Part shown: positions 3,701 to 52,962 of the stretch, one piece after another
Position numbering within the stretch: the first letter of the stretch is position 1
Layout: each line of letters begins with the position of its first letter
The notes under the pieces: generated by a model
The model's input: the letters and a program-made list of their open reading frames with translations, nothing else
Told to the model about the DNA's origin: nothing
The model's database searches: none
Translations under genes and position numbers: made by a program
From: Sipunculus nudus
Lineage: Eukaryota; Annelida; Sipuncula; Golfingiida; Sipunculidae
DNA: 64,000 bases
Assembly (NCBI GenBank): GCA_026874595.1
Contig: CM049307.1
Span: 42,972,362-43,036,361, forward strand
Direction of reading: 5' to 3'

Positions 3701-6700
3701 TGATGTATTAAAGGGGAGATACAGGTACTGTACAGAAGCATTCGTCCCCATATTTATAATGAATGAGTAATATTGCACCAGTTACCAATGAGGAGGCTTA
3801 AAGGGGCATATTCACCCACATTTTATAATAATTTTTCATATCTGGCTTACTCTGAGTAAATATTAATGATCTAACAGTAATTCCCGTTTAGAAAACTTCT
3901 TATAATGCCTCTGTGATGGATGTATGAGCTTGTTTACAAACACGTTGTTAGTAAACAAAGCAATGTTGACAAGTGGGAAACTATGTAACCTGGGGTAGTT
4001 GGCTACATATATACAGAGGCTGAAAGTTCATTAAATGTAAAAAATCCATTTGGAAAATTTTAGTTCATCTGACCTGCCACCAGATGTCCTAGTTGAATGT
4101 GTTTTGATTATTCTGACGGGCCGCCACATACTGTAAACAAGTGGATATAAACAAAAAGAACAGCCTGTGTGTGATTGGATTGGTGTTTTCTTAACTATTT
4201 TAATGAAAGGTTCAAGAGATTACTTTTAGTTGACCAACATCAAATATCTGATTGGGCCCCTTAAGTTTTGTGAAATGTACATACACAGTGAACTGATCAT
4301 ATTATTCACTAGTTATTGTACAAGACATCCCTGAATGGTTATTACCAGTTTGAATTAGAAATTAAATTTTAAATTGCACAAATGAGGTCATAGGGACCTA
4401 GTTCCATTTTTCAAACCATCTTGTCTACCTGGGTTGTCCATGTGCTAAACCCAAAGTTTCTAATTATAATGAAAGTAAAATAATACATCTAATACTTATT
4501 AAAGGAATTCAGTTCACGTTTGTTCACAATGTTCTCTAAAACTGCTTTGTGTACAATACTGTGCCATACATCATTTTAAAGGTTATTATCCCCGCAGTGA
4601 CATAAACAATATGAAAATAAATAATGTTTAATGTACATATAATTTTAAGTGATTTTTCTGTTTTTTAATTACTTGTACGGTGGTTAAACTGAGCACAGCC
4701 GAACTGCCTTCGGCAATGATCGGAATGCGTGCATCCTGGTCACTCAACCTTGAACACTATTATATAAGGACTTTTGATCATATGAATAACCCTTGCTTTC
4801 AGTAAGGGATTTGAGCATGTCTGGCCTTACACTTGTGTGGTCAGTAAAAGAGAAAAATATGTTCTCGTGTTATAAAATGGAGCGTTCAACCATGACAAAA
4901 CCTAATTCAAGGTCCCAATTTCAGGAACAGGGGTGGGTCAGGGTGGAGTGGTGGTGGGGGTTTCAAAATTTGTCTGATACGATAAAAAAAAAGGTTGGGA
5001 TACAGACCCTCTGCATGGAGTCCCATTGGGTCCGCTTCTGCTACTTATGAGGTATTCATATTTCTGTTTCTTTATTCTTTATAAGGTACAGTTTCCTTGC
5101 AACATACATTTAATAAATCTTTCATGTGTTCCTCACATCAACCTAATCTTTATACGTCCAATGATAGAATCCAGTAAAATATCATTGAAAAATTGAATGC
5201 CTCCACGTCTCATTTTGGTTCTCAATGTAAACATCATCATTGACCAGATCTTCAAGGTAAACATACCTGGGTATGAATTTCTTGTCACAAGCATAGCACC
5301 AAAAAATAAATGTAAAAAATATTAATACATATCTTATTGAGACAGTTACCCACTGAGAACCTATATTTTCTGTTAACTTTTAGAATAAACAAGGCCTACA
5401 AGCCTAATGCGAACCTGTGCAAAATTTGGGAGTATGAATGGAGGATTATTATCAAAATTTAATATTGATCCTCTCATGACCTGCATATCTACTTATAATT
5501 AGTATTATGATTTCAGCAAAATGGATGTTCCGGACCTGCAAGTTTTGGACTAGGACATTTTAAAACTAGAATACAGGTAGTGGACAAGCTACTTCATGTA
5601 TCCGCCAAAATCTGAGTGGGACGGGTAAAGTAAGGCATGGATTGAGTGGCAAGGGGATATAGAATGACGTGTGTTGCATATTAGCATGGATGTTTGCAGC
5701 CGTAATGTGTATGTAGGTTGCGCATACTACCACAAAATCCAGAAAGCTGTCCAAGTTGTTTACATATGCAATATTTTAGAAGGACGCTGTGCAAAAATGC
5801 TGGCAGGTGGTGCCATCAGTTTGTATATGATTAAGAGCTATATGAGATGCATACATATGCAAAATTTCAGGGGGATATGTCAAACCAGTCCTGAAATATA
5901 AGCCCGAATGTCTGCAGTGTAAACATAAAAGTAGGTGGCGCCACCTGCCACATAATCGAGAAAAGCTATCCAAGATGTATAAACATGCAAAATGTTAGGC
6001 AGATATGTCAAACCACTACATATGAGTAATTTTATCAAACGGCAGACAAACAGACGGATGCTGTGCAAAAATGGTTGCATGTGGCGCCACCAGTTTTGTG
6101 TATGATAAAGAGCTATGTGAGATCTATACACATGCAAAATTTTGGCCCAATCGGTCAAACGGTTTTCGAGATATGAGCTTGGATGTCTGCAGTGTATACG
6201 TGAATGAAGGTGGCACCACCTGTCACAAAATCATGAAAACTGTCTAGGATGTATAAACCTGCAAAATTTCAGGTGGATAAGTCAAACCACTGCTGAGATA
6301 TGAGTGATTTTATCCCAAGGCAGATAAACAGATGGACACTGTGCATAAGTGGTTGCAGGTGGTGCCATCAGTTTTGCCTATGATGAAGAGCTATGTGAGA
6401 TCTATACACATGCAAAATTTTGGCCCAATCGGTCAAACGGTTCCCCAGATATGAGCTTGGATGTCTGCAGAGTAAATGTGAATGTAAGTGGCACCAACTG
6501 TCATAAAAACGAGAAAGGTGTCCAGGATGTATAAACCTGCATAATTTCAGGTGGATAAGTCAAACCACTGCTGAGATATAAGTGATTTTATCCCAAGGCA
6601 GATGAATGGATGGATGCTGTGCATAAGTGGTTGCAAGTGGCCCCACCAGTTTTGCCTATGATGAAGAGCTATGTAAGATCTATACACATGCAAAATTTTG

Positions 6701-9700
6701 GCCCAATCGGTCAAAAGGTTCCCAAGATATGAGCTTGGATGTCTGCAGAGTAAACGTGAATGTAGGTGGCACCACCTGTCATAAAATCGAGAAAGCTTTC
6801 CAGGATGTATAAACCTGCAAAATTTCAGGTGGATAAGTCAAACCACTGCTGAGATATGAGTGATATTATCCAAAGGCAGATGAACAGATGGATGCTGTGC
6901 AAAAATGGTTGCAGGTGGCGCCACCGTTTTTAGTGTATGTTATAAAGCTGTATCAAAGGGCTACATTTGTGCAAAATTTTTAGCCTGATCGGTCAAACAG
7001 TTCCCGAGATATGTGGGATTATGTGTGGAAACAGACGCACAAATGGACGCTGGGCAGCGAGAAAAGGTCAGAGGTCAACCAAAAATGAGGGCGCAGCAGT
7101 TCACATGTGACCTGATGATAAACCCGGTTTGCTTAAAATGCAAACCAAGTTTTTTTTTAAACAGTTGAAAGATATAGCTCCAATAATCTGGGAATTCTGC
7201 ATCTAAACACTGTGTCTAGACGTCTAGACGCTGTGTCTAGACGTCTAGACACCCCTCCAGAGCCAGGTAGGTGCCATGGTGATGTCTGGACCCCACCTGT
7301 TTGTACTGAGTGACCTCTTGACTTGGGTGCTGAAACTCAGCATGTTTTCAAATCTGTTTTCAAATACAGAAAGCCTTTTCAATTGGCTACAATGCTTTTT
7401 TAAAACTGTATTTACCCAATCTATTCTTATAAAACTGGCAGAAACCTACCATAGAATAATTCTTGTAAAGTTTAAACCAATCAGCTTAACAGTTTCATCA
7501 TAAATCAGTGTATAAGCTAGAAGAGTTTCAAATTACATTTTCGCTTGTAAAAAACACATCAATGTAGGTGGCGCCACCAATTCCTCAAAATCAGATATGA
7601 CATATGTGACAAACATTGGTATAAAATTTGGTGATTATAGCTCTAGCCGTGGATGGTGAACGGCTGACGGTGTGCCATCGCATAAGCTCACAGGTTCACT
7701 AAAAAATGAGCCAACATTCCACATCTCAGTTAATATATATTCCCAACCCTGGTAATAAGCCCAGTATACCGGGCTTATCAGCTAGTAATGGAAATAAAAT
7801 AAAATAAATAATTTAATGAACAGCAGTTGGTGTGGAAATATGACAGATTGCTGCTGACAGGCATGATGTAAAAATGTCACAGAGCACAAATAAAAAAGGC
7901 CAAGCTAGAATGGAACACATGGATACATTCATAAAATGACCATATGATATAATGCTTCCTTTGCATGTTTCTTTCAACTGTTTAAGGTGATTTTCCTCCT
8001 GCCAATAGTTTTAAATAATCTATGATTCAGGAAATGTTAAATAAGGCCCCACAAATACATGTTAATTACTTTTGCCTGAATACAGGTAACTAATTTGTTT
8101 TCACAGATAATGAATTTTCTCTCGGCTTGCTGTGGTGACAATGTCCTTCTAGCCAGTTAATTTTTTATTTATGGTATAAATGATGTCCTTGAACCAAAAA
8201 AAATTGAACATATATATATATATATATATATGAATAATAAAACAATTAAATCTGGTGGTTACACAGTATTGTTGACTAAACATTCAAAATTAAAAATATA
8301 AAGTGACAAGCTTGTTTTCATTGATACAAATAAACCAAATTTTTGACATGATACATGATGAATACATGAATACTATTGTCAGCAGATGAGAAACAGAATA
8401 AAAACATAAATAATATTAATATAAGAAAAAGATGTGTCACAATTCAACAACTGGATGGTTGAATCACAAGTTAGCTCAGCTAGCCAGAACAAAGAAGACC
8501 CCTAATACCTGTGAATGAATCTCACCCTCAGATCGGATAAACAAATCTCCCTGAGAAAAAATGGTAAAGAACCATTTGCATAAAATGTATGACTTGATTT
8601 ATTTATACACATGCATTAGAAAACCTGCTACTTGCTTCAAAGGGAATTGTAATTGTGGTTCATTGAGCAAAAGCCTTCTTTATGCTTTCAATTTCCCATC
8701 ATGCATCCTGTTTCTAAACAACAGCACAGATGACTACTTGAAAGACCCATGGACTGTTATAATGCTCTTCACATGCTATCTACCTTCCCCCTTCCAGTTG
8801 CTGTAAGTTTTTTTCATGCAGCCAAAGTGTGGGAGACTCAAAAACACTCATCTTCAAACAGGACATGCTTTCTATGGATAAAACAGCTTAATGCTTCAAT
8901 TCACTGTGACAAAAATGGACTCATATTGAGCTGTCTGTCACCCAGAAAACACTCTTTCAAATAGTGGTAACACCTATGACAACAAACCTGATCAGTGCAA
9001 TAAAACAAAAAGATCAATGATTTTTTCCCAACAATATCAATATTTTGTTTGTTCCTCTTCATATCGACTTTTGCTATTTCTATTGGTTCTTTTTTTATTA
9101 CTGGTATAAATACTCAGGTGTTCACACCTATGACAACAAACCTTATCAGTGCTTTGATAAAACTGATCTACATTTTTTTTTCAACGACAGCAATTTTTTT
9201 GTTTGTTCCTCTTCATATCGACTCCTGCTATTTCTGTTGGTTCTATTTTTATTATAATTGCTCAGGTGATACTATATATGATATAAAACAGTTTGATTCT
9301 TTTCTTAATGTTTTTTTAATAAAATGACCACTATTAATAATACTGCGGCTTTATAACTGCTATTTGTAATTATTATTAACATTGGTCATATAATATCCCT
9401 CCTACCCTGCCTATCAAACATTACAATTTAAGTGTTTTGTTTAACATCATAACATTATGACTTTATGACATTATTACCATTACTACTACTATCACAGTTT
9501 CTTGATCCTTCTATAATATAAATGAATGTGGTCACTTCCTGCAGCTGTGGTTTAAATATGTTTTCACAGTAGAAGCTTATCAACCCAGAAAATTTTGCAT
9601 ATTATAAGTTGTTAAAGAGATGTAAATCCCAACCTGACCCTCTATAAAATCTCAGGTATCAATTGGAAATTACCATACTATACAGGTATCAGGAAATTTT

Positions 9701-12700
9701 GAAATAACTGTTCGTATACAATACTTTTCACATTGACCAAATTTATAGGTCACAGTTACTTTTGACACTGAATGTACATACAAATGGTATGCCTGAGAGT
9801 TGATAATGTATGAGTAAACATCAAATACATGAGAGTTTTCTGTGTAGTAATAGAGTAGGATCATTCAAACAGAACTTACCTCTGTACAGGTTTCCCTGGT
9901 TTTTCTTTTTCCTTGGCGGTTTCCTCTTTCACTGGCTCATCAGTTTCACCTGTCAACAGCATCTATGAACATAATCAAAATTAGAATACAGGATACCAAA
10001 TTCATATTTTGTAGGTATTTAGTCATATTTGCACGATTTATTCCTAGTTAACAAAATAAAGATTTGGTGACACTGAGATTAATATAATGACTGACCTTGG
10101 CAGTAAAGCAAAAATAACTATCTGCTTCTTTGTATCCATGTGCATTTAATACATCTCCATATTTAAGAAAAAATTTATCTCTTTTAACTTACATTTTAAT
10201 TCTAGTCGATCCTAGTTAATCTGATGCAAGGCGTACAATTTACCTGATACGATGCTTTCTTTTTAAGAATACAGAGAAGCAAAAAAAAAATAAAATAAAA
10301 TAAAAATTGATAACTGTGCATCATTTAAAGGAAATTACTTAGGGGGAAATATGTCTGATACAAAATTTTTGTACTACTGAATATGTAAAACAAGTCCAGG
10401 AAAATTATATGCCATACATCATTTACCTCACTATCTATAAAGCTGAACATGAATATTTTACAGCCATTATATTCAATGATAATATATTGTTGTCTAAGCT
10501 TATTCTCCCACTTCTCAAGGTACACCTCATTAGTAATCTAACAAAGTAATTACTGTACCAGAAGCCATGTTATCTGTCCTCCTCAAGTCAACGTAACTTT
10601 TTTTTTTATAATATCATACAGTATGGTCCAAATATCGTGAAGCTATAACTATAATATAGGTAAAAATATAGTTTTACTAGAAAACGGGTAGTCGACAAGT
10701 GACAACATGTATTTGCAGAAACCAGAGTGGGACAGGTGAACTGAGGCATGGATTGAGTGGCAAGGGGAAATAGAGTGAGCTGTGTTGCATATTAGCATCG
10801 ATGTCTGCAGGCGAAATGTGTATTTAGGTGGCGCAACCTACCACAAAATCCAGAAAGTTATCCAAGTTGTCTTCAATTGCAAAACTTTAGGCAGACAAGT
10901 CAAACCACTGCCGAGATAGGGGTTATTTTATCTAACTGCAGACAAACAGATGGACGCTGTGCAAAATAAGTTACAGGTGGTGTCACCAGTTTTGTATATG
11001 ATAAATAGCTATGTAAGATCAATACACACGCAACATATCAGGAGGATATGTCAAACCAGTCTTGAGATATAAGCCTGGATGTCTGCAGCCTATATGTGAA
11101 TGTAGGTGGCGCCACCTGCCACAAAATCAAGAAAGCTATCCAGGATAAACATACATGCAAAATTTTAGGCAGATTAGTCGAACCACTGCCGAGATACGAG
11201 TGATTATATCCCATGGCAGACAAACAGACGGATGTTGTGTACAAATGTTTCAGGTGGCGCCACCAGTTTTGTGTATAATAAAGAACTATGTGAGATCTAT
11301 ACACATGCAAAATTTCAGGTGGATATGTCAAACCAGTCCTGAGATATAAGCCTGGATTTCTGCAGTCTGAACATGAATGTATGTGGTGCCACCTTTCAAA
11401 AAATCAAGAAAGCTCTCCAGAATGAATACGCATGCAAATTTTCAGGTGGATAAGTTCATTCACTGCAGAGATACGGGTGATTTTATCCCACAGTAGACAA
11501 ACAGATGGACGCTGTGCAAAAAAAGTTGCAGGTGGCACCAACAGTTTTTCATATGATAAAGAGCTCTTCGAGATTTATACACGTGCAAAATTTCAGGAGG
11601 ATACATGAAACCAGTCCTGCGATATAAGCCTGGATGTCTGCAGCCTGAACATGAATGTAGGTGGCGTCACCTGTCATAAAATCAAGAAAGCTATCCAGGA
11701 TTAATACTCATGCAAAATTACAGATGGATAAGTCCATTCACTGCAGAGATATGAGTGATTTTATCCAAAGGCAGATGAACAGATGGATGCTGTGCAAAAA
11801 TGGTTGCAGGTGGCGCCACCGTTTTTAGTGTATGTTATAAAGCTATCCAAGGGCTACATTTGTGCAAATTTTTTAGCCTGATCGGTCAAACGAGTCCAAA
11901 GATATGTGGGTTAATGCGTCAAAACAGACACACAGATGGACGCACTGGAGAGAGGAAAGGTCTGAGGTCAACACAAAAGATTTTGGCACCAGTTCATATG
12001 TGACCTGATAAGCATGTGAAGTTTCGGAAAAATCTGTTGAGTGGTCTAAGAGTTCTACTCTGGAAACGAACGCGGCGGCGGCGGCAGAACCTGGTCAAAA
12101 ACATACTATCTGCAAAACTTTGTTTTGGCGGATACAAATATATAGTTATTCTAATTCATAATATGATAATTTGTATTTCTGAGCATTGATGATTGAGTGA
12201 ATATGGCTTGTTTAAAGGACAATATTTCACTGGTTAATAATTTGTATATAATATCACCTCTGTGCTCAATTACAATGTATCACAGAAATGTGATTTTCAC
12301 TCCTGCAAGCTGAAAAAACATTTAACTATTCTGTCAAGTGAACAGTTGTTAAAACACATCTACAAGTGGTCATAATTTTTTCCTACTATGCTCCCAGTAA
12401 GTAAATACTGCACTGGGTCAGATTTAATTCCATGAGTTTTAAAATACTTTCACTTCACTGGGGAACTAAAGTATCATATATTTTTTAAACCATTCCCCAG
12501 CTTCCTTTCAGGTTCATGTCCATGCAAACATAACAGTTACACAAAGTCCTACATAAAAATCTCTGATCAACACCTTGTACACAGGTGACTTGACATATAT
12601 TATGTGTCTAAAATAAGCACTCTTCAGGTTTTTTTTTTGTTTTAGGATTTCCCATATATTTTAAATTTCATTTCACTAGCCTTTTCACTTTTTTCCCAAA

Positions 12701-24700: not shown

Positions 24701-27700
24701 TTGACCTTTTGTATAAAATCATCCAATATTCATTGGGGTACTATGGAGCTCTGTAGCATGAAGGATATGGGTAACAGACACCTATTTTCAAGGTTTACAA
24801 GATGACTTTTCAGGGGTCTCCCAGCATGTCAAAAAATAAAATTCTAGGTCCAGTTATTATGATTTGTGCCCTGTTAACAAATCCAAATGTTTATTCTGGG
24901 GGGTATTTCAAAGCCGCATAGGATGAAGGATATGGGTAACAGAGATGTAATTTCAGGTGCACAAGGAGACTTTTCAGGGGCCTCCCAGCATATCAAGAAA
25001 GGAGATTCTAGGTCAAGTCATTATAATTTGTGCTCTGTTAACAGATGACCAAATCTTTATTCTGGGGAGTACTTCGGAGCCCCAGAGCATGAAGGATATG
25101 GGTAACAGGGACCTTATTTCGGGTTTCCATGTAGACCTTTTATGGGCTTCCCTGGAGGTGAGGACAGAAAATTCTAGGTCCAGTCATTATGATTTGTGCC
25201 CTGTTAATATATGACCAAATCTTTATTCTGGGGGGGGGGGGGGGTACTTCAGAGCCCCATAGCTCACAGAATATGGGTAACAGGGACCTTATTTCGGGTT
25301 TCCATGTAGACCTTTTATGGGCTTCCCTGGAGGTGAGGACAGAAGATTCTAGGTCCAGTCATTATGATTTGTGCCCTGTTTACAGATGACCAAATGTTTA
25401 AAGATCACAAAAGTAGAGAAAAAAAATCGTAAAAAATAAAAAAAATATAGGTGGCGCCACCAATCTCCGGATGAAACACTCCATGATCAATATCCATGCA
25501 AAGAATCATGGTGATTAATGAATTAGTTGTTCAGAAACTTGAGCTTTTGTATTAAATTTTGCATTATTCTGGGGGGTACTTCAGAACCCCATAGCTCGAA
25601 GAATATAGGTCACAGTGACCTAATTTCAGGTTTACAAGGAGAATTTCCATAGACCTCCCAGGATTTCAAGTAAGAAGATTCCCGGTCTAGCGGTTACGAT
25701 TTGTGCCCTGTTAACAGACAGACGCCTGGATGGCCAGACGGACGACGGACAAAAGGTGATCCCTACAGCTCAGATGACTTTCAGTCAGCTGAGCTAAAAA
25801 TTGAAAAAATACAGGTGGCGCCACCAGAATGCAGAAACTGATGAAACATTTCATGATCAATATCCATGCAAAGAATCATGGTGATCAATATAATAATTGT
25901 TCAGATACTTGAGCTTTTGTATCAAATTTTCCATTATTCTGGGGGGTACTTCGGAGCCCCATAGCTCAGAGGTTATGGGTCACAGAGACCTAATTTCAAG
26001 TTTTTAAGGAAACTTTTCATGGGCCTCTCAGCATGTCAAGAGAGAAGATTCTAGGTCCAGTTGTTACGATTTGTGCCATGTTAACAGATGACCGCATCTT
26101 ATGAGGTCTCAAAAATAGAGAAAAAAATTCGTAAAAATAAAAAAAATACAGGTGGTGCCACCATACTGCAGAAACTGATGACACATTCCATGATCAATAT
26201 CCATGCAAAGAATCATGGTGATCACTGCAATAGTTGTTTAGATACTTGAGCTTTTGTATCAAATTGTCCATTATTCTGAGGGATACTTCAGATGACTTAC
26301 AGTCAGCTGAGCTAAAAACACTTAATGGTCAATATCCATGCAAAGAATCATGATGATCTCCGTATTAGTTGTTCAGATACTTCAGCTTTTGTATCAAATT
26401 GTCCATTATTCTGAGGGATACTTCAGAGTCCTATAACTTGAAGGATATGGGTAACAGAGACCTAATTTCAAGTTTCCACAGGCACTCTTCATGGGCCTCC
26501 TTGCATGACAAGAATGAAGTTTCTAGGTCCAGTTGTTGCAATTTGTACCCTCTTGATAGATAACATAGGTGGCGCCACCAGTCTGGAGGAACTGATGGAA
26601 CATCTCATAATCAATATGTATGCCAAAAATCATGACCATCAGTGATGTAGTTATTGAGATATTGAAGTTTTTGTATGAAATTTTTGACTACTCTGGGGGG
26701 GTACTTTGGGGCCCCATAGCTGGAAGGATATGGGTAACAGAGACCTAATTTCTGGTTTCCATGGAGACTTTTCATAGGTCTCTCAGTGTGTTGAGAATGA
26801 AGATTCTAGGTCAAGTCGTTACTATTTGTGCCATGCTAACAGATGGCAGCATCCTTAAAGGTCTCAAAAATAGAGGAAAAAATCGTAAAAAATCGAACGA
26901 TACAGGTGGCGCCACCAGTCTGCAGGAACAGATGACACATCTCATGATCAATAGTTATGCCACAAATCATGACCATCATTCAAGTAGTTAATGACATATT
27001 GAAGTTTTTGTATGAAATTTTTTACTTTTCTTGGGGGTACTTTAGGGCTCCATAGCTCGAAGAATATGGGTAACAGAGACCTAATTTTGATTTCCATGGA
27101 GACTTTTCATAGGTCTCTCAGTGTGTCCAGAATGAAGATTCTAGGTCCAGTCGTTATGATTTGTGCCACATTAACAGATGACAGCATCCTTAAAGGTCTC
27201 AAAAATAGAGGAAAAAATCGTAAAAAATCAAACAATACAGGTGGCGCCACAAGTCTGCAGGAACTGATGGAACGTTTCATAATCAATATGTATGCCAAAA
27301 ATCATGACCATCAGTGATGTAGTTATTGAGATATTGAAGTTTTTGTATGAAATTTTTGACTACTCTTGGGAGGGGGGGGGGGGGTTTGGGTTTTGGGGCC
27401 CCATAGCTCGAAGGATATGGTTAACAGAGACCTAATTTCTGGTTTCCAAGGAGATTTTTCATGGACCTCTCAGTGTGTCAAGAATGAAGATTCTAGGTCC
27501 AGTCCTTACGATTTGTGCCATGCTAACAGATGACAGCATCCTTAAAGGTCTCAAAAATAGAGGAAAAAATCGTAAAAAAATCGAACAATAAAGGTGGCAC
27601 CACCAGTCTGCAGGAAGTGATGACACATCTCATGATCAATAGTTATGCCACAAATTATGACCATCAGTCAAGTAGTTAATGAGATATTGAAGTTTTTGTA

Positions 27701-30014: not shown

Positions 30015-30043
30015 TAATAAGCTTCATAAAGTGATATCTGCTC
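28378..30043 (-). CDS. CCSER2: Coding exon 1 of CCSER homolog: large N-terminal exon with short 5' UTR
   Basis: Acceptor 'ttctttcag' ends at 30044, the UTR is 30043-30015, and ATG is at 30014-30012. An in-frame TGA in the UTR, four codons upstream, fixes this ATG as the start. The exon codes residues 1-545 plus two bases of codon 546, and ends at donor 'gtaagc' (28377-28372). It is low-complexity, rich in Ser, Asn, Asp and Lys, and probably disordered. Features: MGGCYSSG acylation-type start; SGLPRP 39-44; three copies of SV-x-SL (85-89, 251-255, 436-440); KKSFRPSWLGGSSKKKK 213-229; acidic DDLMLDIDIDLDD 443-455; VRRYTDGGLPKYGT 508-521. The last two match conserved CCSER motifs. Human CCSER genes likewise carry most of the N-terminal half in one large exon (from memory). 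Confidence 0.9.
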
Positions 30044-30080
30044 CTGAAAGAACAAAGAAAAGAATATAATGAGAACTATG

Positions 30081-30475
30081 ATCCAGCAACCATTATTTCA
30101 GGAACTCAATCTTTACTATGATCCAGCAACCATTAATTCAGGAACTCAATCTTTACTATGATCCAGCAACCATTAATTCAGGAACTCAATCTTTACTATG
30201 ATCCAGCAACCATTAATTCAGGAACTCAATCTTTACTATGATCCAGCAACCATTAATTCAGGAACTCAATCTTTACTATGATCCAGCAACCATTAATTCA
30301 GGAACTCAATCTTTACTATGATCCAGCAACCATTAATTCAGGAACTCAATCTTTACTATGATCCAGCAACCATTAATTCAGGAACTCAATCTTTACTATG
30401 ATCCAGCAACCATTAATTCAGGAACTCAATCTTTAATATGATCCTGCAACCATAATATTCAGGATCTCAGTGTAC
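30081..30475. repeat. 40-bp minisatellite, nine copies plus a degenerate tenth
   Basis: The unit starts 'atccagcaaccattaattca' and ends 'ctttactatg'. Copies start every 40 bp from 30081 to 30401. Copies 2-8 are identical, copy 1 has 'cattatttca', copy 9 has 'ctttaatatg', and a worn copy begins at 30441. The array ends 36 bp from the acceptor of coding exon 1. There are no variable spacers, so it is not CRISPR-like. Confidence 0.97.
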
Positions 30476-34193: not shown

Positions 34194-37100
34194 ACAAGTG
34201 GCCCGCGGGCCATGATGCTCAACTGAATTTGACGTACAGATCAGGCATGCAACTCCCTAAATGCTAACTTGGAAGTTTCTACATCCATCTGCTACAATTT
34301 GTGCCCATCTGACCAATAGAGTACTTAAATCATGTTCATTCACATAACTCACAGAAAATAGGACAATGTGGCCTTATTTCATATGGGGAAAGGAGACTCT
34401 ACAATGATGTGCCCAGAACCTCCCAGAATGTTGCCTTAGAAGATTCTAGGCCTAATGGATACAATTTGTACCAGTTTGACTGAAAGCATGCTCAAAATCA
34501 TGTTTTTGGCCATCTGTTTCCTGTATATAGGTAACCATGACCAAATTTCAGCTTCCATACAAGATTTGCCTCAGACCCCCCTCGATGTAGAGTAAGAAGT
34601 TTCTAAATTGAATGGTTACAGTCTGTGCCTTGTCAACACACAGACTGCTTCATTTAAGACCTCAAAATGCATAAAAACTAAAAATCAAATAAAGATGACA
34701 TCACAAGTCTTCAAGAATTGATGAAACAGTCCATGATCAATATCCATGGAAAGTATCAGGACAATAAATGTATTAGTTATTCATACTCATAGTCATACAC
34801 TAAAGCTTTTGTATCAACTGTTTAATTATTCTGGAATGCAATAACTGGTCCATAACTCAGAGAATACAGGTCAATATGTGTAGATTTTCAGGAACCTCCT
34901 TGTATATTAAGTCCCAAGAGGATTTTAGGACTAGCAGATACAATTTGTTCTCCGTCTGCTTATCTTGGTGCTTAAAATTATGTTTTAGGCCTGTAGTTCC
35001 CAAAATATAGAGGTCACCATGACCACAATTTCAAGTTTCTATGGAGATTTGCCTACCACCTCCCTGGATGAACAGTAGAGGTTTCTAGGTCAAATGGTTA
35101 CGGTTTGTGCCTTGTTAACAGCAGGACTGCTTCATTTGAAGGTCACAAAAATAGAGAAAACAAGGGACCTATGGGTCACAGCGCGCAGCTGTTATATATG
35201 ATAAAAAAATATGATTTAGAAATGAGGCACATGCAGGTTTAGTGTGGTAATAAAAATAAGCTGTATTATGAGTTGTTGTTGTTTAGCTTATGTATGATTT
35301 TGATAATACCTTTGGAGACAGGAAAGAGGATTGATTTCATTTATATTATTAACAAATGGAATACTCTTGTCACACAGATTTTGACTTGGCCATATAACTT
35401 ATAAGCAGAACATATAATATAAGAGTTTAACTATTTATTAAAAAAATTACAAATATTTTCCAAATATAATTTTTATTAAAAATAATAAGAGAATCATATG
35501 ATTTTTTTAAATGAAATATAACTGAAATGATTATTAAAATAATATTAAAGAATATATTCATGAATGCATTCATGAATACATTTTGAAAGTATTTGCACTG
35601 GTATTCATATACTTTCATTTTTACCTGAATTCCCATTCTTTATGCAAGAAATTTTATAATGGAGTACATATTCATATTCGTATTTAATTTTCAATTGCAA
35701 AGTATTTGCACCGTGTCTGGTATTTATATAGTTTTCACCAAACAATGATGTTGAGAATCCAGAATATACAAAATTCACACATTTAAATAATGATCATAAG
35801 TACCTGGTTTTATGACTTTTATTTATATTATAAAATATGACTTTTATTTATATTATAAAATATCATATAAATATTATATCATCAGTAACTGCAAGTTAAT
35901 TTCCTGTTATTATAACTAAAAAATTCCTTTTCTATTTTTCTTTAATTTGTTATTAAAATCAATAAAGATTTATTAATTTATTGTTTATTGTTATGTTGTT
36001 GGTTAAAACTACTAGATGAGTTGGGTTGGACACCTGGATCAACTGTGGCTAGCCATAAGCTGCCTGGCTGCCCCAGAGAATGCCTCGCGTCAAGCATGCA
36101 TAATTTGCTGAAAGTTCAACAAGGTCAACATACAGGTGACTCAAGAGGGGCTTGAGAGAGCCAAGGTCTGACATGGTCTCATAAAAACATTAATAAAAGC
36201 TACAATATTTGGCCAATTTCTTTCAGCTTTCTAAACTAAAAAGCTGAAATCCTTATGCGTGCATGATATGAAAATTGTATCAACAGTGCTTACAGGAAAC
36301 AAATGTGCCATGGTCAAAGTTGGGCAAAATTTAAGGTACTAATTTTATATTTATACTAATAACTTATAAAGTTTGAAAAATTCAGAAATAATTTTGGGTA
36401 TTCAATTGAATCTTGATTAAATAATGTTACATCCCTGACAAAAAATCTCTAGCTTCAGCAATCCCCTTGTAAAGGGAGTAAATATATTTCTTGATTTTTT
36501 ACAAAGTGCATTATGTTTGGGCCCATAACTTAAAACAATTACGCAATACTGACATCATTTCTGGCATGTGCTTAGAGAATGTACAGAAAAATATATATAT
36601 TGTATATGATTAAAGTCAGATCAGTGGTTTTGATATTAGGCAGTCTTGAAGTGTAACAATGGGTTTTTAATGGAAAAATGAAGTTTTTCATTAATATCTC
36701 GAAGGTATTAAGTCCTAGTGACCAAATTCTTGGCATGGTAGGGGATTTTGGAGACATCTAATTGTATGCCAAATTTTAGGAACTTAGAGCTGAAGATGGG
36801 GAGCTGGGCTCTTGCAAACTGCATAACACAAGTTGATGTAAACAATATGTTACATGGTGCTTGAAAACTTGAATAAAATCTACAGTTTTTGATCAACTGG
36901 TTTCAAATTTTTGGTGTTAACAGACAAAATGCTAACATAAACATGCTGTGAAAATTAAATCCACAGTACTTACAGGAATAAAACGTGCCATGGTCAAAGT
37001 TGGGCAAAATTTAAGGTACAAATTTTTTATTTTTGTTAATATTTAAAAAAATTTAAAAGATTTTGATCTAATTTTGGGTATACAATTTAATTTTGATAAA

Positions 37101-37860
37101 TTAAAGTTATATTACTGGAAAAAAAGTCCATAGCTTTAACAAGTTTTGTGTTAAGTGATCAAATATCTTTCCTGATTTTTTACAAAATGCATTATGTTTG
37201 GGACCATAACTTTTTTAAATTATATAATACAGACATAATTTCTGGCATGTACATAGGAACTATATAGGGGAATATTCATGGTAAATATGAGGAAAAACAG
37301 ATGAGTAGTTTTGATATTAGGCAGTCCTGAAGTGTGAAAATAGGTTTTTAATAAAAAATTGAGGTTTTCCTTAATTTCTCAAAGGAACAAAGTCGCAAAG
37401 ACCCAGTTTTTGGTTTGGTAGGAGATCTTGGGGACATCTAACATTATGCCGAATTTTGGATTCCTAGGTCTTACTGTTTCAAAACGTGCCACATCTATGG
37501 ACGGATAGACGGACGGACAGACGGACGGACGACGGACAATGGACCACGACTATAGCTCAGATGACTTATAGTCAGCTGAGCTAAAAATTAGAAAAAATAT
37601 GCATGGAAAGAATCATGGTAATCAATGCATTAGTTTTTCTGATACTGGAGCTTTTGTATCAAATTTATTATTATTCGGGGGGGGGGGGGGGTACTTACCA
37701 GCCCCATAGCTCAAGAGGATATAGGTCACAGTTACCTAATTTAAGGTTTCCAAGAAAATTTTTTTATGGACCTCTATGGGTGTTTAGTAAGAAATTCCTA
37801 GGTCCAGCGGTCACGATATGTGCCCTTTTAACAGCCAGCTAGACGATCTTCAAAAACATC
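34194..37860 (+). repeat. Element(s) of the ACAAG...CTCAGCTGA family, with ~680-bp internal repeat
   Basis: 5' end at 34194 (ACAAGTGGCCCGCGGGCCAT then GATGCTCAACTGA). A second 5' end is at 35160 (ACAAGGGACCTATGGGTCAC then AGCGCGCAGCTG). The 3' end near 37586 reads 'gacttatagtcagctgagct' followed by AAAAA, preceded by a (gacg)n-type run at 37500-37540. Internal phrases 'gtgccatggtcaaagttggg' recur at about 36307 and 36985 (~680 bp apart). 37600-37860 resembles part of the 336-bp unit. 35200-36000 is very AT-rich with a direct repeat around 35813-35865. Confidence 0.7.
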
Positions 37861-37919
37861 CTGCCACAAATATGTTGTGGTTCTGTCACAAGCTATGGTT
37901 TTGTGAGATTGCTATCATA

Positions 37920-42907: not shown

Positions 42908-42954
42908 CTTCTGTGGTATTTAATTCCATCCATGGTAAAAGTATTATCTGATTC
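42908..42954 (-). other. Candidate upstream exon (47 nt) with a strong-context ATG
   Basis: The minus strand reads 'attaacattgcag', 47 nt, then GTAGGT. It contains ACCATGG and reads ESDNTFTMDGIKYHR in phase 0. If spliced directly to 30043, that ATG opens a short frame out of register with the main ATG. It could be a 5' UTR exon with a uORF, an alternative exon, or chance. The peptide resembles DNEVIEVDGVSYRQ of coding exon 3. Confidence 0.28.
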
Positions 42955-44254: not shown

Positions 44255-44404
44255 CATACTCAGCCATATACCCCTGAGAGCACACATACCAGGTATTCAG
44301 GTGATATACAGGTGATATACTGGTCAGTGTATCCCGGTTAACCCTTCACTCACGCTGCCTCACCTTTGATCATGTATTACCTGCCTACCATCTGATTTAA
44401 TTAA
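44255..44404 (+). repeat. Dispersed duplicate, copy 1 (~150 bp)
   Basis: From 'cccatactcagccatatacc' to 'ctaccatctgatttaat', nearly identical to 50501-50647 with a few substitutions and one 2-nt gap (cactcacgctgcc versus cactcactgcc). Confidence 0.93.
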
Positions 44405-45382: not shown

Positions 45383-45620
45383 GTGATGTATTCAAGTCCA
45401 CACTATCCAAGCCCGAGTGCAAGTCCAAGTCCAAGCCACTCAAGTCTGAGGCCAAGTCCTTCAGGTTCGAGTCCAAAAGTGATGTATTCGAGTCCACACT
45501 ATCCAAGCCCGAGTGCAAGTCCAAGTCCAAGCCACTCAAGTCTGAGGCCAAGTCCTTCAGGTTCTAGTCCAAGTGCATCCCCTCCGAGTCTGAGTTATTT
45601 GGAACCTAAGTCCAAGTCTG
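45383..45620 (+). repeat. 96-bp tandem duplication built on degenerate AAGTCC/GAGTCC hexamers
   Basis: 'gtgatgtattcaagtccaca' (45383) recurs 96 bp on (45479) with near identity, and 'aagtccaagtcc' hexamers fill both copies. It is open on the plus strand as a Ser-Pro-rich frame and on the minus strand as a Leu/Asp/Ser-rich frame. This follows from the hexamer and is not evidence for a gene. Confidence 0.85.
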
Positions 45621-46828
45621 TGCCTAAGTCCAATAAAAATCTCTTTATTAAAAGAAATTGAAACAGGGAAATTTGAGATTATCGTGTGTGGCTTTATGTC
45701 AATGTTTAAAAAAAAAGCTTTTTACCCGAGTGTGTAATATCATTTATATCTTGATACAGAGCCAAAGCTTGGTAGTATGTAATCTTTTCTGTAATATTCT
45801 GTTAGTAGTATACTACTAGTTTCACACAAGACTTCATAGTATTTGAAATAGCTTTTTCCAGAAGGACTAGGCCTGGTTTTTTTTTTAAATCCTTACCTCC
45901 AAGTCTGGATACAATTCCTCATCCAGATAAAAAAGCAGACTTGAGTCTTACATCACTGCTTGAAAATATTAGGATTAACTATCCACTATTTCTGCCATGG
46001 GATGAAAATAATATACTACACTTGCAGTACAAGTCTGACTGGAGTTGTAGAGGATTGCAGGTGTTCTGGTTATACACCGCACCTGTGCCACTGATGCTGT
46101 GGACTTGCTCAGCATCTATTTGTTTCCTGATTATTTGTATACAAACAGTCAGCTTGCTGGCCCTGATATATTCAAGCTTCACAACACCATTGATCATCTC
46201 CCATTAATTCATGAATATAATGCATCCAGGTTCACTCCAGTAAATAAGCACACACTTAATGATGTTACACACTGTGACTCATGAGTCTGAATTTTTCTAA
46301 CATGGAGGATTATTGCCTCCACTAGGAGGATATGCTTTCATCCGTGTTTGTGTTTGTGAATGTTCACAACACTCAAGCAATCATGAATGGAATCTCATGA
46401 AATTTTCAGGGCATAATTTGGGAATGGCAGAAGGAAGAATTGATTAGATTTTGGTGTGGATCCGGTACACGACCCGCATTCAGGAACATCATCAAGGAAA
46501 AGTCGCAAATTATTATGTAGAGCCACTTATACACAAATGAACCTGGAATATTTATTGAATAAGTGAATACAAACACATGGTGTGGCCTTGCATTCCTCAA
46601 AATGCAGATTTCTAGTTGTACTAGTGCAGCTGGTTAAAAATATTTATTTTAGATGAACTGTAAAAGTAGCAAAATGTGCTGGTTAAGGCACTGATCAGCA
46701 TGTCAGAAATTGTTACTGATAATGCATACAGATCAAGGTGCCGGAAAGGACACTGGTGCAATATATAAACTGGCGTCCTTTCTTTAGCAATGAAAAGTTG
46801 TTATACACCTCCCAGAATTAACTAATTA

Positions 46829-47044
46829 GGCCAAAAAAAAGGTATGGTTCTCAGGCACCACCCGCGCCACTTTTAACCCCCTGCATCAACAATTTTATTT
46901 TGATTTTCATCTTTCAAGAAGATAAAATAATACAATTTTGATAACATTTCCTTTGTTATGTAGTTCTTTTACCTGTTTAGCAAAAAATTCTGTTATTATC
47001 TTGCTTTTCCCTGATCATATGACATTTTTATCGAAACATACAAA
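46829..47044 (+). mobile_element. 5' part of a PIF/Harbinger-like MITE, truncated
   Basis: Begins TTA-GGCCAAAAAAAAGGTATGG then 'ttctcaggcacc' and matches 58948-59153 up to 'atcgaaacatacaaaa'. There the match stops and an ACAAGGGACCCATGGGTCAC element begins at 47045. The 3' terminal inverted repeat is missing. Confidence 0.85.
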
Positions 47045-48720
47045 ACAAGGGACCCATGGGTCACTGTGCTCAGCTGAAGTTGACCTTGAAGGTAATAATC
47101 TAAAATAATATCAAATGGAGATTAAGTGTGAGAGGAAGAGGTAATATAGGCCATGGTCGGTTAATAGGATTGGTTTGTATTGATGAGCAAGAGATTGTTG
47201 CAAATAATATTTGACCATGTGTTTCCTGATCAAGAAACTGAAGCATGTGAGCAATTGTAAACAAATGATCTGTACTATTACCATGATCTTTAGTTGGCTT
47301 TTTGATTAACTGTTGAAATTTCAGTAGTTTACATATTTGTTCAATTCAATCTATTTTTTTTATAATATATATTATTAAATGTATGCATTTTTATATTTAA
47401 TGAAATTTTTACAGTTGAAATATGACTAATGTCCCCAGATGAAAGGACTTGGTGGTAGTGGTGGTGTCGGCGGGGTTGGGTGTGTGGAATGATGGGAGTT
47501 ACAATACAACATATCTGTATTATTATAGTGTATATACATAGGATTTTCACTTAATTCAGCAATGCTTACAGGATAAAACTAGAATATCAGCAGAAGCTCA
47601 CAAAAGCCCTCAGCCAAAAGAACAGTGTTTATACGTGGTAACAGTAACAAGTACAAAATATTTGTTCTCTCATGGATGTATATCTGTATATGTCTCAGTT
47701 ATAAATTTAAACTGGAGAGGTATATACCATGTTTCATAACAATCTACCAAATGCTGCTAGAAGATATCCTGCTCACAAGGCCAAAGTAATCTGATAAAAA
47801 TTCATTAAGAATCAGGAATTGTAGGTGGCGCCCCTAAACTTGTGCAGCAAGTACTGACCATGAGTCCCAATCATCATAGTAATGTTTGTGAAAATCCGCC
47901 CAATAGTCTCTGAGAATTAAGCTTCTAAGTCTTTTTCTATAATCAGCTCTAAAACTTCAGTGCCCGTATCAAACTGAAGTCTACAAATAACTCCTTCTCT
48001 GAAACGATATGGCCAAATTGTTTAATATCGCACAGAAATGATCCTAGGGTAGTGCTTTCTGAAGTTTGTTCAAATGGTCTCAGTTCAGTGACTTTTGCCT
48101 AAGTTATGGGAAGCTGAATTTAGTCATATGACATAGCAGCCCATTTTAGCTAAGTGGCTAAAAAAATCTTCTTCTCAAAAACCACTGGGCCAAATTCTTA
48201 AATCTCACACATTAATTATCCTTAGATGTTGATAATTCAAGTTTGTTCAAATGGTCTCAGTTCAGTGACTTTTGGCTAAGATGTGGGAAGCTGAATTTAG
48301 TCATATGCTGTAACAGCCCATTTTAGCTAAGTGGCTACAAAAATCTTCTCAAAAACCACTGGGCCAAATTTTTAAATCTCACACATTAATTATTCTTAGA
48401 TGTTGATAATTCAAGTTTGTTCAAATGGTCTCAGTTCAGTGACTTTTGGCTGAGTTATGGGAAGCTGAATTTAGTCATATGCCGTAACAGCCCATTTTAG
48501 CTAAGTGGCTACGAAAATCTTCTTCTCAAAAACCACTGGGCCAAATTCTTAAATCTCACACATTAATTATCCTTAGATGTTGACAATTCAAGTTTGTTCA
48601 AATGGTTTTGGTTCAATGATTTTTGGCTGAATTATGGGAAGCTGAACTTTGCCATTTTGCTGTATTTTCCCATATGAATTATAAACCTACAAAACGTTTT
48701 TTGACTAATGATACTGAGGC
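47045..48720 (+). repeat. CTCAGCTGA-family element with ~175-bp tandem units
   Basis: The 5' end ACAAGGGACCCATGGGTCAC followed by TGTGCTCAGCTGA matches the other family members. A degenerate palindrome (aggtggcgcccct) is at about 47823. From about 48000 to 48700, four units repeat every ~175 bp: 'cccattttagctaagtggct' at about 48139, 48317 and 48491, and 'ctcacacattaattat'. No clear 3' end is seen. Confidence 0.7.
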
Positions 48721-49429
48721 CAGTTTGTTTAATATTTTGCAAGAATAATTCCCTGAATAATTCTTATAATAATTGTCTTTTATGGTTCCAAAGAATGAAT
48801 TTTGGCTGATTTATAAAGATTGAATTGAGTCATTTTACCATATATGTTAGCTGTGTGATGCTGTTACATCTAGCCTGGCACCAGTTTATCAGCATTTATT
48901 ACATCATGCCACTAGACATTTAGATTTCAGGTTATCTTTGGTTAATATTGACAAGAAAGTTTTTTTTAAAAGCTTTTAAAAAATTTAGATTTATGATTTA
49001 AGTTATTCATCATACCAGGCAATGTTACAATCATGGATATTCAGCTCTCTGTGGCTATATAAAGACAACTGTACGTGGATTATAAATTATTGGTATCCCC
49101 ACTCAACTTAATTCAAGACTTTGCCATCAGTGAGATATATCTGTACTTTAAATTTGCATTCAGTATGCATCCGTAATAATTTTACATATATTCCTGATTT
49201 CTTTTTTATAAAAAGTCAGCTGAAAAGCATTTTGTATTGGGAAAATAAATTTTAAAGTTATTTCAAGTAGGGACCACTTTTGTGTTCAGATGGCAGCACT
49301 TGGTTTACCATTGGCAGATTGCCAGTGCCTTGATGTTGGCCATAAGCCAAGATGATGTCAGCTCTATTAATAGTTTTAGCACAGTGCCAGGATTGGAAGA
49401 AGTGCAGCCGGTTATAGGTCTCGAGTTCA

Positions 49430-49680
49430 CTCAGTGCAGGAGTTGCATTCTATTTATAGCTTTGGCAGACTGCTCACTGCATCATATTTGGCACCAAAGC
49501 TAAGCCTGAATCTATTTATAGCTTTGGCAGACTGCCAACTGTGTCAGATTATGCAACAGGTCAAGAGTTCACTCAGTGCAGCCAGGTACAGGTCAAAAGT
49601 TCACTCAGTCTAGCCAGGTGCAGGTCAAGAGTTCACTCAGTGCAGTAGCTTGAGGCGGCAATTTGTCACAGGTCACTCGG
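49430..49680. repeat. Short ~40-bp repeats with 'agttcactcagt'
   Basis: 'gagttcactcagtgcag' or close variants occur at least four times (about 49423, 49565, 49599, 49631) with 'ccaggtacaggtca'-type links. 'tttatagctttggcagactgc' occurs twice (about 49451 and 49513). Confidence 0.75.
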
Positions 49681-50500
49681 GGGCAACTGCCTTACTCACC
49701 TAAGCCTTGTCAGCCCAGTGCATCAAACTCTGGGGAAGTTTGATGTACTGGACTGATATTTTGACCTGTCTATGCATCTTTGATGGTATTCTTATTTACA
49801 AAACAGGTGGTGCCACGTACATTGACTTTTGCACAGTGTATGTGCCTGCTTATTTCTATAGAGGAATTTGATATATCAGTCTGAAAATTGGCATATGTGT
49901 ATATCTCTGATAGCTTCAAAGTATACAAGACTGGTGGTGCCAGCTACAATCGTTTTTGTGTTGTGTGCACCCATGCCAGAATTTCAGCAGTGATGTTTGT
50001 GTAATTGTTTCTTATTCAAAATGTTTAGTACTTTCATTGTTCATATACATGAAAAGTAATGTTCCAGCATTAAAGCATTATACCTGGTGTATTTCCCAAT
50101 GCACAGGTTCACATTAGGCCTGTAGGCCTTGTTTCCCTTTGTTTCTCTGCTGAACTTTCAAAACCCAGGAGAACTGTTTTGACCCATTTCTATCTTGACA
50201 TCTCATCAATGTTGTTGCAGTGAACACTAATTGGAGTGAACAATTCAACAAAATGTAAATGAGACACTAATATATGTACACATGTATACACTGCAACACA
50301 GGCATGTCATGGCCAATCATCCAGTAAATTTATACACTGTAAGAGATAAAATATAACAAACTGGCCATCATCACATTTGGACCAATCAAATTCCCTGACT
50401 TTCCCCTGATTTTACACATTTTTTCTCAAATTTTCAGATTTAAAAAAAGAAACTGATTAACATAGTTCCTCCCCCCCTCCCCAAGTTCTAGGATTGCATA

Positions 50501-50647
50501 CCCATACTCAGCCATATACCCCTGACAGCACACATACCAGGTATTCAGGTGATATAAAGGTGATATACTGGTAAGTGTATCCCTGCTAACCCTTCACTCA
50601 CTGCCTCACCTTTGATCATGTATTACCTGCCTACCATCTGATTTAAT
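50501..50647 (+). repeat. Dispersed duplicate, copy 2 (~147 bp)
   Basis: Same orientation and boundaries as copy 1, about 6.2 kb away. The internal 'caggtgatatacaggtgata' is itself a short duplication. No ends typical of a transposon are visible. Confidence 0.93.
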
Positions 50648-51056
50648 CATTTGAAACTCTGAGAAGCTGACCTGACACAGGAAATAAGCACACTTCAACT
50701 TGCTGGTAATAGACAGCTTTAACTAAGTAAACAAGGTGTATGACTATAGGGATACTCTGGCAAACATGTACCGATTAGACAGGAGACAAGGCCTCTATCT
50801 GAAAGTTCCACTACAATATACAGACCATCTTGATGGAGACAGACTGTGCTGCACACAGCTGCTCTTTTAAATTTTATGGTTCTGTTTTTGCTGCTACATT
50901 ACTTTTCCTAGTTCCAAATATGTATGTCTGTGTCTTGTCATGCCTATAAGTGTTAAAATATCTGACAGCAACTTTGCAAATATTTGACTCTGTCATAAAC
51001 TGAAAGGAGATTCCTAAGCTTAACTGTATGAACTAATATCTATCTGAAATGGGTGG

Positions 51057-51060
<4 letters not shown>

Positions 51061-51141
<81 letters not shown>
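51061..51141. repeat. Long (TA)n microsatellite
   Basis: About 40 uninterrupted TA dinucleotides. Confidence 0.98.
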
Positions 51142-51144
<3 letters not shown>

Positions 51145-51599
51145 ATACCTGAATCTTTAAAAAAATATTCCGACTCATAAGTCAAAAAGAACTAGTCCGG
51201 CTGCTACTATTGAACATTCAGACTGCATTCTAGTGAGTGAACTAGGGACCCAGGTATGCTCCATAAGCAGTGGTCAACACAGTCTCTATACTGACTCGCT
51301 GGTGTGGCCTGAGGTCCATTATCCCCACTGTCTGCATATTTCCACTCTTGCAGTGCTACACGAGCTTGCCACAGGCACAGCTATGTTTGTTTACATGCTA
51401 AGCCAATTAGATTTCTTCCACCAGTTCTGCAGATTTGTTTAAACCAGAGCAAATCAGATTTTAGTTTATCCATCACAAACTGACTGTGTGTTTGGCACCT
51501 TGCCAAACCTGCCAGGAGGTCACGCGGTGTTTTCAGAGAGTTGGACTAAGAGGTTTTGACACTCAGCTGAATTTGTCAAGAAGGTTATTTTTTAAAGAA

Positions 51600-52500
51600 A
51601 TTTTACAGAATGACGGTCCTGTGACCTTAACCAATGACATTGTGACCAAGAAATCTGAGAAATTATTATCCTTGAACTTGCAGCATTTAGATTATCGTAA
51701 CAAATCTTTCAAAAAAAGTTGGTCCTGTGACCTTTACCTCTGACTAGCTATAGGTAGAGACAGAGTTCTTCCACTTCCACTTCTTCCAGTTAGGACAAGT
51801 AAGCCATGTGTGAAAGATGGATAGTTTGGGATGAAAAGTTTGATTTACAGTGCATCCACAATCATTTTCAAGATGGGGCTCCTGCCACCCTCACCTTTGA
51901 CCTCTGGACTCTGATAATCAAAATGTATCTTACTTAAGTAGTTGGTCATTTATAAATCAAGTTTGAAGCCAATCTGTCTGGCCTAAAGAGAATTATCATC
52001 CATAAACTAATTTGTAAATGAATGGACCTAGTGACCTTGACCTTTGACACTGACCCCCAAATCGAAAAGAATCTTCCCCTATTGGCATGTGAGTAATATC
52101 TTGAAGATGGGAGGTTTGTGATGAAAAGATTGGCTTGAAATACATACACATTCCTTTTAAAGAAATGGGTCCTGTGACCTTGACCATTGGACCTTAAATG
52201 GACAGGGTTCTTACTTTAGTGGTGAGCTATGTATCAGTTAGGCTTGAAACCAATATGTCAAACTAAACTGGAGTTATCATCTTGAAACTAATTTGTGAAC
52301 AGATGGTCCCTGTGATATTGACCTTGTGACTCCAAATTTATTTTTGCTCTCCTGATACTGGCAAAACAGCTAAATGTGCAAGATGGAAAGTTTGGGATGA
52401 AAAGCTTGGGTTAAAGCCAGGCAAAATCTTTTTAAATAAGCAAGACAGATAGACAGACAGACAGGGTTATTACTATATAGGGCATCCACTAGTGATCAAT
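51600..52500. repeat. Divergent ~105-150-bp repeat with 'ggtcctgtgaccttgacc'
   Basis: The phrase recurs in worn forms near 51617, 51721, 51877, 52023, 52167 and 52303, with 'gatgaaaagtttg' and 'gaccttgacctttgac'. The array ends in a (gaca)n run at 52441-52463 and 'gggcatccactagtgatcaa'. Confidence 0.75.
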
Positions 52501-52589
52501 AAACACACCAGGTTTTGGGACACTAGATGGAGTCAAAGCTGAGCAACTGACATGATTGTTGTCCTTTTATAGTAAAAAAAAAAATTGTA

Positions 52590-52962
52590 AAAATAATAAA
52601 AAAAACAGGTGGCGCCACCACTTTTCTGTAAATGACAACTAGTCATGGTCAATATTCAAGGCAAGATTCATGACAATCCATGCATTAATTATCAAGATAT
52701 TGGAGGTTTTGTATCAAATTTTTTATAATTCTGGAGGGGGCAGGGGATGGGACTTAAAGCCCCATAGCTCAAAGGATATAGGTTGCAGTGACCTAATTTT
52801 AGGTTTCCAAGGAGATACTTTATGGTCCTCCCAAGATCTTTAGTTACAGGCTTCTAGGGTCCGTGGTAACAATTTGTGCCCTGCTAATGGACGGCCAGAC
52901 GGATGAGAGACAAAGCGCCATACCTATACCTCAGTTTACTTACAGTTAGCTTAACTAAAAAT
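52590..52962 (+). repeat. Single unit of the 336-bp palindrome family with worn 3' end
   Basis: An intact AGGTGGCGCCACC at 52607-52619 is followed by 'catggtcaatattcaaggca', 'agccccatagctcaaaggat' and a tail 'ttacagttagcttaactaaa', a decayed form of the CAGCTGAGCTAAA end. Confidence 0.8.

Follow-up and report, generated by a model that had tools for sequence, protein, structure and literature searches.

Mobile elements of mammals multiply the motif words of CTCF. Short interspersed nuclear elements (SINEs) do so in mouse, dog and opossum, and B2 SINEs of the mouse are reported to have spread the motif to more than 10,000 genomic positions (PMC3368268). Outside vertebrates, the role of CTCF in chromosome organisation is an open question. 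Domain boundaries of a squid are reported to contain a CTCF-like motif (PMC9023564), and loop anchors of cephalopods likewise have CTCF-like motifs (PMC12407938). In the open chromatin of an annelid, no motif is more frequent than that of CTCF (PMC7854359), and a 2023 review counts very few genome-folding studies in Spiralia (PMC10658182). Here we analyse a 64,000-nucleotide stretch of the Sipunculus nudus genome (assembly GCA_026874595.1, contig CM049307.1, positions 42,972,362 to 43,036,361; hereafter the window) and its repeat modules, which are built around a 13-letter word containing the palindrome GGTGGCGCCACC. The word is present in about 150,000 genomic copies and is better preserved than any other part of a large, old mobile-repeat family; its reader may be the host CTCF.

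A second group of described systems includes bivalve repeats. As described in PMC7492417 and PMC4067079, Helentron-associated elements (HINEs; Cg_HINE of the Pacific oyster and the pearl elements) contain short arrays of 140–180-bp units, subterminal inverted repeats, a 5' inverted repeat and a 3' palindrome, and lack a target duplication. Cg_HINE has diverged repeat clusters with two better-kept shared segments (PMC7492417). In the bivalve satellites BIV160/Cg170 and phBglII400, short motifs are kept in diverged monomers, and a 12-bp palindrome is associated with 13 of 16 junctions in the clam phBglII400 satellite (PMC5139131). The S. nudus modules resemble HINEs and mammalian SINEs in some of these features and, at the level of description, the satellites. 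They differ from the mammalian SINEs in that the host lies outside the vertebrates, the elements are apparently of rolling-circle type, the words stand in tandem arrays and number about 150,000, and the binding is predicted from sequence. Among the papers listed in an open-licence literature search, we recognised no prior report of CTCF sites in mollusc repeats.

The word and its modules

In the window (G+C 36%, CpG at 0.31 of expectation), GGTGGCGCCACC occurs at 31 sites with up to two mismatches, compared with a mean of 0.43 and a maximum of 3 in 100 dinucleotide shuffles; the perfect 12-mer occurs 12 times. Family A, with half-units A1 and A2, is a 278-bp dimeric array present in two copies (5.7–6.9 kb and 10.8–11.8 kb). 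Family B is a 336-bp array at 25.4–28.3 kb with a lone unit at 52.6 kb, and the other units are single. Sites are spaced ~129/149 bp apart in the 278-bp dimer and ~336 bp apart in the 336-bp array, in accordance with the ~140 bp and ~336 bp claimed in an earlier reading of the letters (the sequence-only reading). All 13 intact and six degenerate positions named in that reading are found, its starts falling on the letter that precedes GGTGGCGCCACC.

The whole-genome scan that the sequence-only reading had proposed covers a 1.43-Gb assembly of 153 contigs. The 13-mer AGGTGGCGCCACC occurs 76,139 times on the forward and 76,127 times on the reverse strand, compared with 5 and 6 for a reversed-letter control. 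We also took a feature-blind sample of 200 kb (CpG at 0.58 of expectation), made up of twenty 10-kb segments at preset coordinates along C1–C10. There AGGTGGCGCCACC heads the list of non-simple 13-mers, with 27 counts on either strand and 17 for the runner-up. Perfect sites number 20 in this sample, those with one mismatch 10 and those with two mismatches 15, and the flank is repeated in register elsewhere in the 308 kb compared at 20/20 perfect sites and at 37/45 of all sites. Iterated palindrome-free profiles recover 133 modules, of which the blind sample contributes 37, the window 31 and loci around perfect copies 65. Although found without the word, 23 of the 37 blind-sample modules carry it with at most two mismatches and 31 with at most three, the latter level being reached at 2.4% of 2,000 random places.

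The sequence-only reading took the repeat families to be unrelated. We searched palindrome-free profiles of the downstream 95 bp against the units. The A profile matches B units in register (E down to 0.001) and the B profile matches A units (E down to 0.002). The families cross-detect in register without the palindrome and are therefore not unrelated. The A profile also matches the sites 49933 (E=4e-8) and 49806 (E=0.07), identifying both as minus-strand units. Fixed-register tests, in which the unit at 34694 was anchored one base late, are mixed. Ungapped identity over the downstream 100 bp is 52/98 for A1–B, 49/100 for A2–B, 47/98 for A1–7567 and 44/100 for A2–47824, and the palindrome register is the best of 81 shifts in each of these pairs. 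Consensuses and single units, ten in all, make 45 downstream pairs, and in 26 of these no shift scores above the palindrome register; most of the exceptions involve single units and 61139. On the upstream side the palindrome register takes first place in 10/45 (A1–B rank 7, A2–B rank 14). Local alignment against shuffles, an insensitive test, gives a clear result for A1–A2 only, A1–B being equalled by 14/300 shuffles, and anchored consensus alignment against random window pieces gives a weak signal. We regard the profile tests as decisive. Judged by them, the families are mostly diverged, distantly related members of one module superfamily.

Measured against its flanks, the word is under constraint. 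In a within-family comparison of 26 copies of A1, A2 and B, with cells scored against the family consensus, 12/251 non-CpG palindrome cells are changed compared with 398/2,947 flank cells (Fisher p = 2e-5). Among G/C letters only, the counts are 12/199 and 175/977 (p = 1e-5). The CpG cells of the palindrome (12/61 changed) are indistinguishable from other CpG cells (134/470; p = 0.17). The earlier claim that the palindrome is better kept than its surroundings thus stands for the non-CpG letters, which diverge more slowly than neighbouring bases, and falls for the CpG cells. In sliding windows over all 12 letters, equally conserved windows number 23/125 in A1, 20/103 in A2 and 3/107 in B, so that the whole 12-mer is unremarkable in A1 and A2 but stands out in B. 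When CpG is excluded, the palindrome lies in the lowest few per cent in each family (A1 6/129, A2 3/111, B 0/113).

For the anatomy of the word we anchored 132 modules by register, dropped 15 with more than four mismatches and used 117. An A stands directly before the word in 116/117 modules; the letter preceding this A (position -1) is C or T in 112/117, and position -3 is T in 105/117. The letter after the word is A in 64/117 and T in 50/117. Non-CpG letters mismatch at 0.02–0.07 in the left half (mean 0.048) and at 0.03–0.09 in the right half (mean 0.060). The central CpG letters mismatch at 0.18 and 0.25, chiefly to TG and CA, and are the least kept part of the word, contrary to the earlier suggestion that a retained GCGC reflects constraint.

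The same pattern appears between families. Of 186 sites within three mismatches, 118 were assigned to seven families (A1 46, A2 26, B 21, C 15, D 4, E 4, F 2) and 68 were left out. Across the seven consensuses, the preceding A and 9/12 palindrome columns are invariant, compared with 0/59 flank columns (10/13 for the word; Fisher p = 5e-10, with columns treated as independent). The palindrome columns that vary do so due to the small families D and F, and in D, E and F singly (two to four members each) the palindrome is no better kept than the flanks. Because the A is kept on one side only and is invariant across consensuses, the conserved object is the one-sided TRYAGGTGGCGCCACC, not a 14-bp palindrome. 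The constraint probably acts in the source elements.

A coding role was considered and rejected. Minus-strand stop-free frames exist, but the 278-bp period is not divisible by three. No known RNA family is found in the window at the gathering threshold.

Element ends and architecture

We aligned 12 left and 11 right ends of A elements. The left ends share AACTAGAATACGGGTAGTCGACAAGCGACTACGTGTATCCGCC and the right ends share ATAGTATCCGCAAAACTTTGTTTTGGCGGATACAA, several of them decayed. Subterminal inverted repeats are present at both ends, TGTATCCGCCAAAA near the 5' end and TTTTGGCGGATACA at the 3' end, and the elements contain a 5' inverted repeat and a 3' hairpin (GTAGTCGacaagCGACTAC). On folding of two copies, the 3' stem has z=-7.7 in the locus L039 and z=-3.6 in the window; the 5' end has z=-4.0 in L039 and z=-1.2, not significant, in the window, where it is decayed. 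No target-site duplication is seen by eye in the aligned A-element ends. With their end repeats, hairpins and central tandem arrays of ~140-bp units, family A elements look like Helentron/HINE elements. The ends of family B differ from those of A. At least for the A type, the modules may form the central tandem array within Helentron/HINE-like elements, a view that we hold as tentatively as the account of the word's reader below, with which it forms a joint explanation. The modules differ from Cg_HINE in that the shared word is here identified, is CTCF-like and also occurs in B-type and single modules, and in that a 336-bp unit is present and (GGC)n lies on the right side.

Two further tandem repeats were noted. 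A 177-bp repeat (window 48062-48694; L039 8631-9420) directly follows the A-element end in L039 and is on the opposite strand in the window. At window 24754-25400, beside complete 336-bp units, a half-unit of B (175 bp) is repeated in tandem and lacks the palindrome module.

Candidate readers of the word

The consensus YAGRKGGCRSYV, which we take to be the vertebrate CTCF core, is matched by 192 of 16.8 million 12-mers. All seven family consensuses fit it 12/12, and they differ only at its degenerate positions. The half-site fit claimed in the sequence-only reading is thus borne out on this core. The accompanying claim of two cores placed head to head is not, the fixed A being present in 116/117 modules on one side and its counterpart in 50/117 on the other; in addition, two overlapping cores share the central bases, so that simultaneous occupancy would hardly be possible. 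In the blind 200 kb, 40 of 51 occurrences of YAGRKGGCRS lie within palindrome-like sites, and a reversed control gives 6. Genome-wide, YAGATGGCGC occurs 9,996 + 9,752 times and YAGRGGGCGC 9,069 + 8,811 times, each ~19 times the number expected from composition with CpG depletion, a baseline used here since the reversed-letter control of these words contains two CpG and is unfair. The YAGATGGCGC count is made up in part of decayed copies of the word; in the blind sample, 4/5 of the YAGATGGCGC places are palindrome-like. YAGATGGCGC also occurs five times at ~10.3 kb intervals at G000:C1:3714795-3756283, probably through a tandem duplication of that length.

The genome contains a CTCF-like gene with conserved core fingers. 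A query of human CTCF fingers matches an open frame on C11 (G000:C11:67037578-67038510; L053/P0001) with E=4e-109 and 56% identity, while the next zinc-finger gene reaches 9.5e-56. The best PDB match of this gene is 'Transcriptional repressor CTCF' (7w1m; 6e-109). In the finger numbering used here, the finger 4 helix TSGELVRH is identical to the PDB CTCF chain and the finger 5 helix has one change (VELSKLKRH for VEVSKLKRH). The sequence-only reading had made its proposal depend on such a gene. Among the matches listed to the CTCF query (at least 325), many are C2H2 zinc-finger open frames, often clustered, on G000:C16, C7, C9 and C11.

Several observations weigh against CTCF as the reader. In fingers 3, 6 and 7, several helix positions are not those of the PDB chain; the helix of finger 6, for example, starts with P instead of R. 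The GGTGGCGCC families lack the upstream CCAS part of the CTCF motif and are A/T-rich in this region, with the T at -3 kept. Outside palindrome-like sites, the preference for R and K is weak, the blind sample containing five AG[AG][GT]GGCGC and four places with other letters at those positions. The main point is the right half, CACC, which lies beyond the CTCF core and is kept like the left half. CTCF does not require CACC. Its conservation could be due to further fingers, a second protein or another role.

A 328-bp tandem family carries a fuller CTCF-like site. Of 100 listed YAGRGGGCGC places, 41 lie no more than 1 kb from another, and 16 of the 18 intervals below 400 bp measure 312–334 bp. 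The family is found in L054/L058 (overlapping) and L055, loci within G000:C1:81560-85760 and 2739380-2739900. Eight of its 12 units contain TGGC(C/T)GCTAGGGGGCGCTG, which is non-palindromic and close to the full CTCF consensus, and only here is the upstream CCAS part closely approached. The core is kept at 0.95 and the flanks at 0.81, the units not being independent and some lying in larger duplications. On the other side of the account, the 12/12 match of this family to YAGRKGGCRSYV holds by construction, because the core pattern served as the query that led to the family; independent evidence comes from the outer letters alone. Two of the 12 units have AGTGG, which the consensus disallows. 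Two other YAGRGGGCGC places, L056 and L057, lie outside such arrays, the latter itself palindrome-like (TAGAGGGCGCCACC).

Taken together, these data lead us to the following explanation. The modules would form one old, diversified, non-autonomous mobile-repeat superfamily, each module opening with TRYAGGTGGCGCCACC, followed ~40 bp later by a loosely conserved block. The word would be a protein-binding site needed by the elements, and its likeliest reader would be host CTCF, taking the YAGGTGGCGCCA side as a one-sided core. CTCF binding may keep copies in open, unmethylated germ-line chromatin and thereby help their propagation; as a side effect, ~150,000 CTCF-core words would be scattered through the genome, often in arrays. 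We favour this explanation at slightly less than an even chance. It predicts TGCAGGTGGCGCCA / TGCAGGTGGCGCCACC as candidate CTCF-binding sequences of the modules. Of the earlier proposal that transposons spread architectural-protein sites, the spreading of the word by mobile elements stands, and the binding is a prediction. A broader variant, which we consider doubtful, holds that several mobile tandem-repeat families settled on the host CTCF word and supply most CTCF-core sequence, that the elements exploit CTCF for open chromatin, and that chromosome folding in this lineage is largely shaped or buffered by them. If CTCF is the reader, the ~150,000 core words borne by elements, many of them arrayed in order, would offer a natural experiment in the effects of excess sites, and the element-driven spread of CTCF sites would extend from mammalian SINEs to rolling-circle elements. 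Should CTCF not be the reader, the retention of the word amid turnover of the sequence on either side would still indicate that the elements have a real need for binding.

In rolling-circle replicons, repeated sites can bind Rep. The word might likewise be bound, in the manner of an iteron, by a protein that the element encodes, whether its Rep/transposase or a different one, and be unrelated to CTCF. Its retention in every family during flank turnover would suit such a site, as would the position of the A arrays in HINE-like elements with terminal hairpins. However, the word is also present in single modules and B-type repeats with different surroundings, the CTCF-core fit extends to all seven families, and HINE central repeats can be unrelated despite related flanks, as PMC7492417 describes. 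We judge an element-encoded reader to be unlikely.

It is rather improbable that the palindrome is kept by another host factor binding GGTGGCGCCACC as a symmetric dimer. The about equal decay of the two halves fits a dimer, and so does the symmetric double variant GGTTGCGCAACC, which occurs 140 times genome-wide, 12 times composition. Yet this variant amounts to just ~0.1% of the main word, the flanking A is one-sided, and we know of no symmetric dimer factor of that kind. Compensatory pairing in the palindrome was also considered; the first units of the A arrays show GGTTGTGCAACC (2/117), and given this and the low share of GGTTGCGCAACC the idea was dropped as unsupported.

The palindrome could instead be a break-and-join site for module exchange and amplification, its conservation being a by-product. 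The last units of the A arrays, 6914 and 11809, match the A2 consensus at 0.95 and 0.97 to the left of the palindrome and at 0.68 to the right, unit 26568 scores 0.40 over the 20 bp left of its palindrome and 0.92 on the right, and in L039 the array yields to the element end a few bases past the palindrome. The junctions of clam phBglII400 offer a precedent. Other junctions lie elsewhere (26316, 28267, 37596), the independent junctions are too few for a test, and the kept A, Y and T on the left are unexplained by breakage. We give this possibility a low probability as well.

Least probable is that one element family was amplified and the word, without function, is merely its recognisable part, as the very high copy number and the unremarkable whole palindrome, CpG included, of A1 and A2 would allow, since between families the flanks differ by about half and the word does not, and modules found without the word mostly carry it.

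Feature coordinates and neighbouring features

Table 1 Modules, arrays and element ends in the window (window coordinates; motif sites given by their starts)
Feature	Position	Strand	Details
A-type element 1	5562..7100	+	5' end AACTAGAATAC..GTAGT-hairpin..TGTATCCGCC, then tandem half-unit array; end coordinate approximate
A array 1 motif sites	5716..6925	+	5716 (broken), 5806, 5934, 6080, 6209, 6358, 6487, 6636, 6765, 6914
Single C-type module	7567..7578	+	perfect GGTGGCGCCACC
A-type element 2, both ends present	10673..12139	+	3' hairpin 12107-12134
A array 2 motif sites	10827..11820	+	10827, 10976, 11105, 11253, 11382, 11531, 11660, 11809
B-type sites	25450..25825	+	25450, 25814
B-type array, ~336 bp period	26151..28278	+	26151, 26568, 26905, 27240, 27593, 27930, 28267
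Truncated B unit	26316..26392	+	downstream block without motif; profile E=9e-16
Old B-like unit	34694..34812	+	badly decayed motif GATGACATCACA at 34694-34705, 7/12 letters left; profile E=1.5e-14
Truncated B unit	37596..37657	+	downstream block without motif; profile E=8e-12
F-type module	47824..47835	+	GGTGGCGCCCCT
D-type module	49806..49817	-	CGTGGCACCACC; profile E=0.07
D-type module	49933..49944	-	GCTGGCACCACC; profile E=4e-8
Single B-type unit	52608..52619	+	perfect motif
Possible decayed module	61139..61150	-	AGTGGCGCAACC; E=9, not significant, in register only

Of three scans of viral and genome contigs for relatives, one matched a phage and one a bacterium, both by chance, and the third gave no match. 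Elsewhere in the window, long open frames at 28374-30023 (-) and 389-901 (-) contain SGLPRP-like motifs and have no Pfam match. Ten near-perfect copies (98%) of a 40-bp unit, at 30075-30469, closely precede an open frame of 549 aa when read on the minus strand. The B array ends ~30 bp from the apparent donor site of the 28374-30023 (-) frame.

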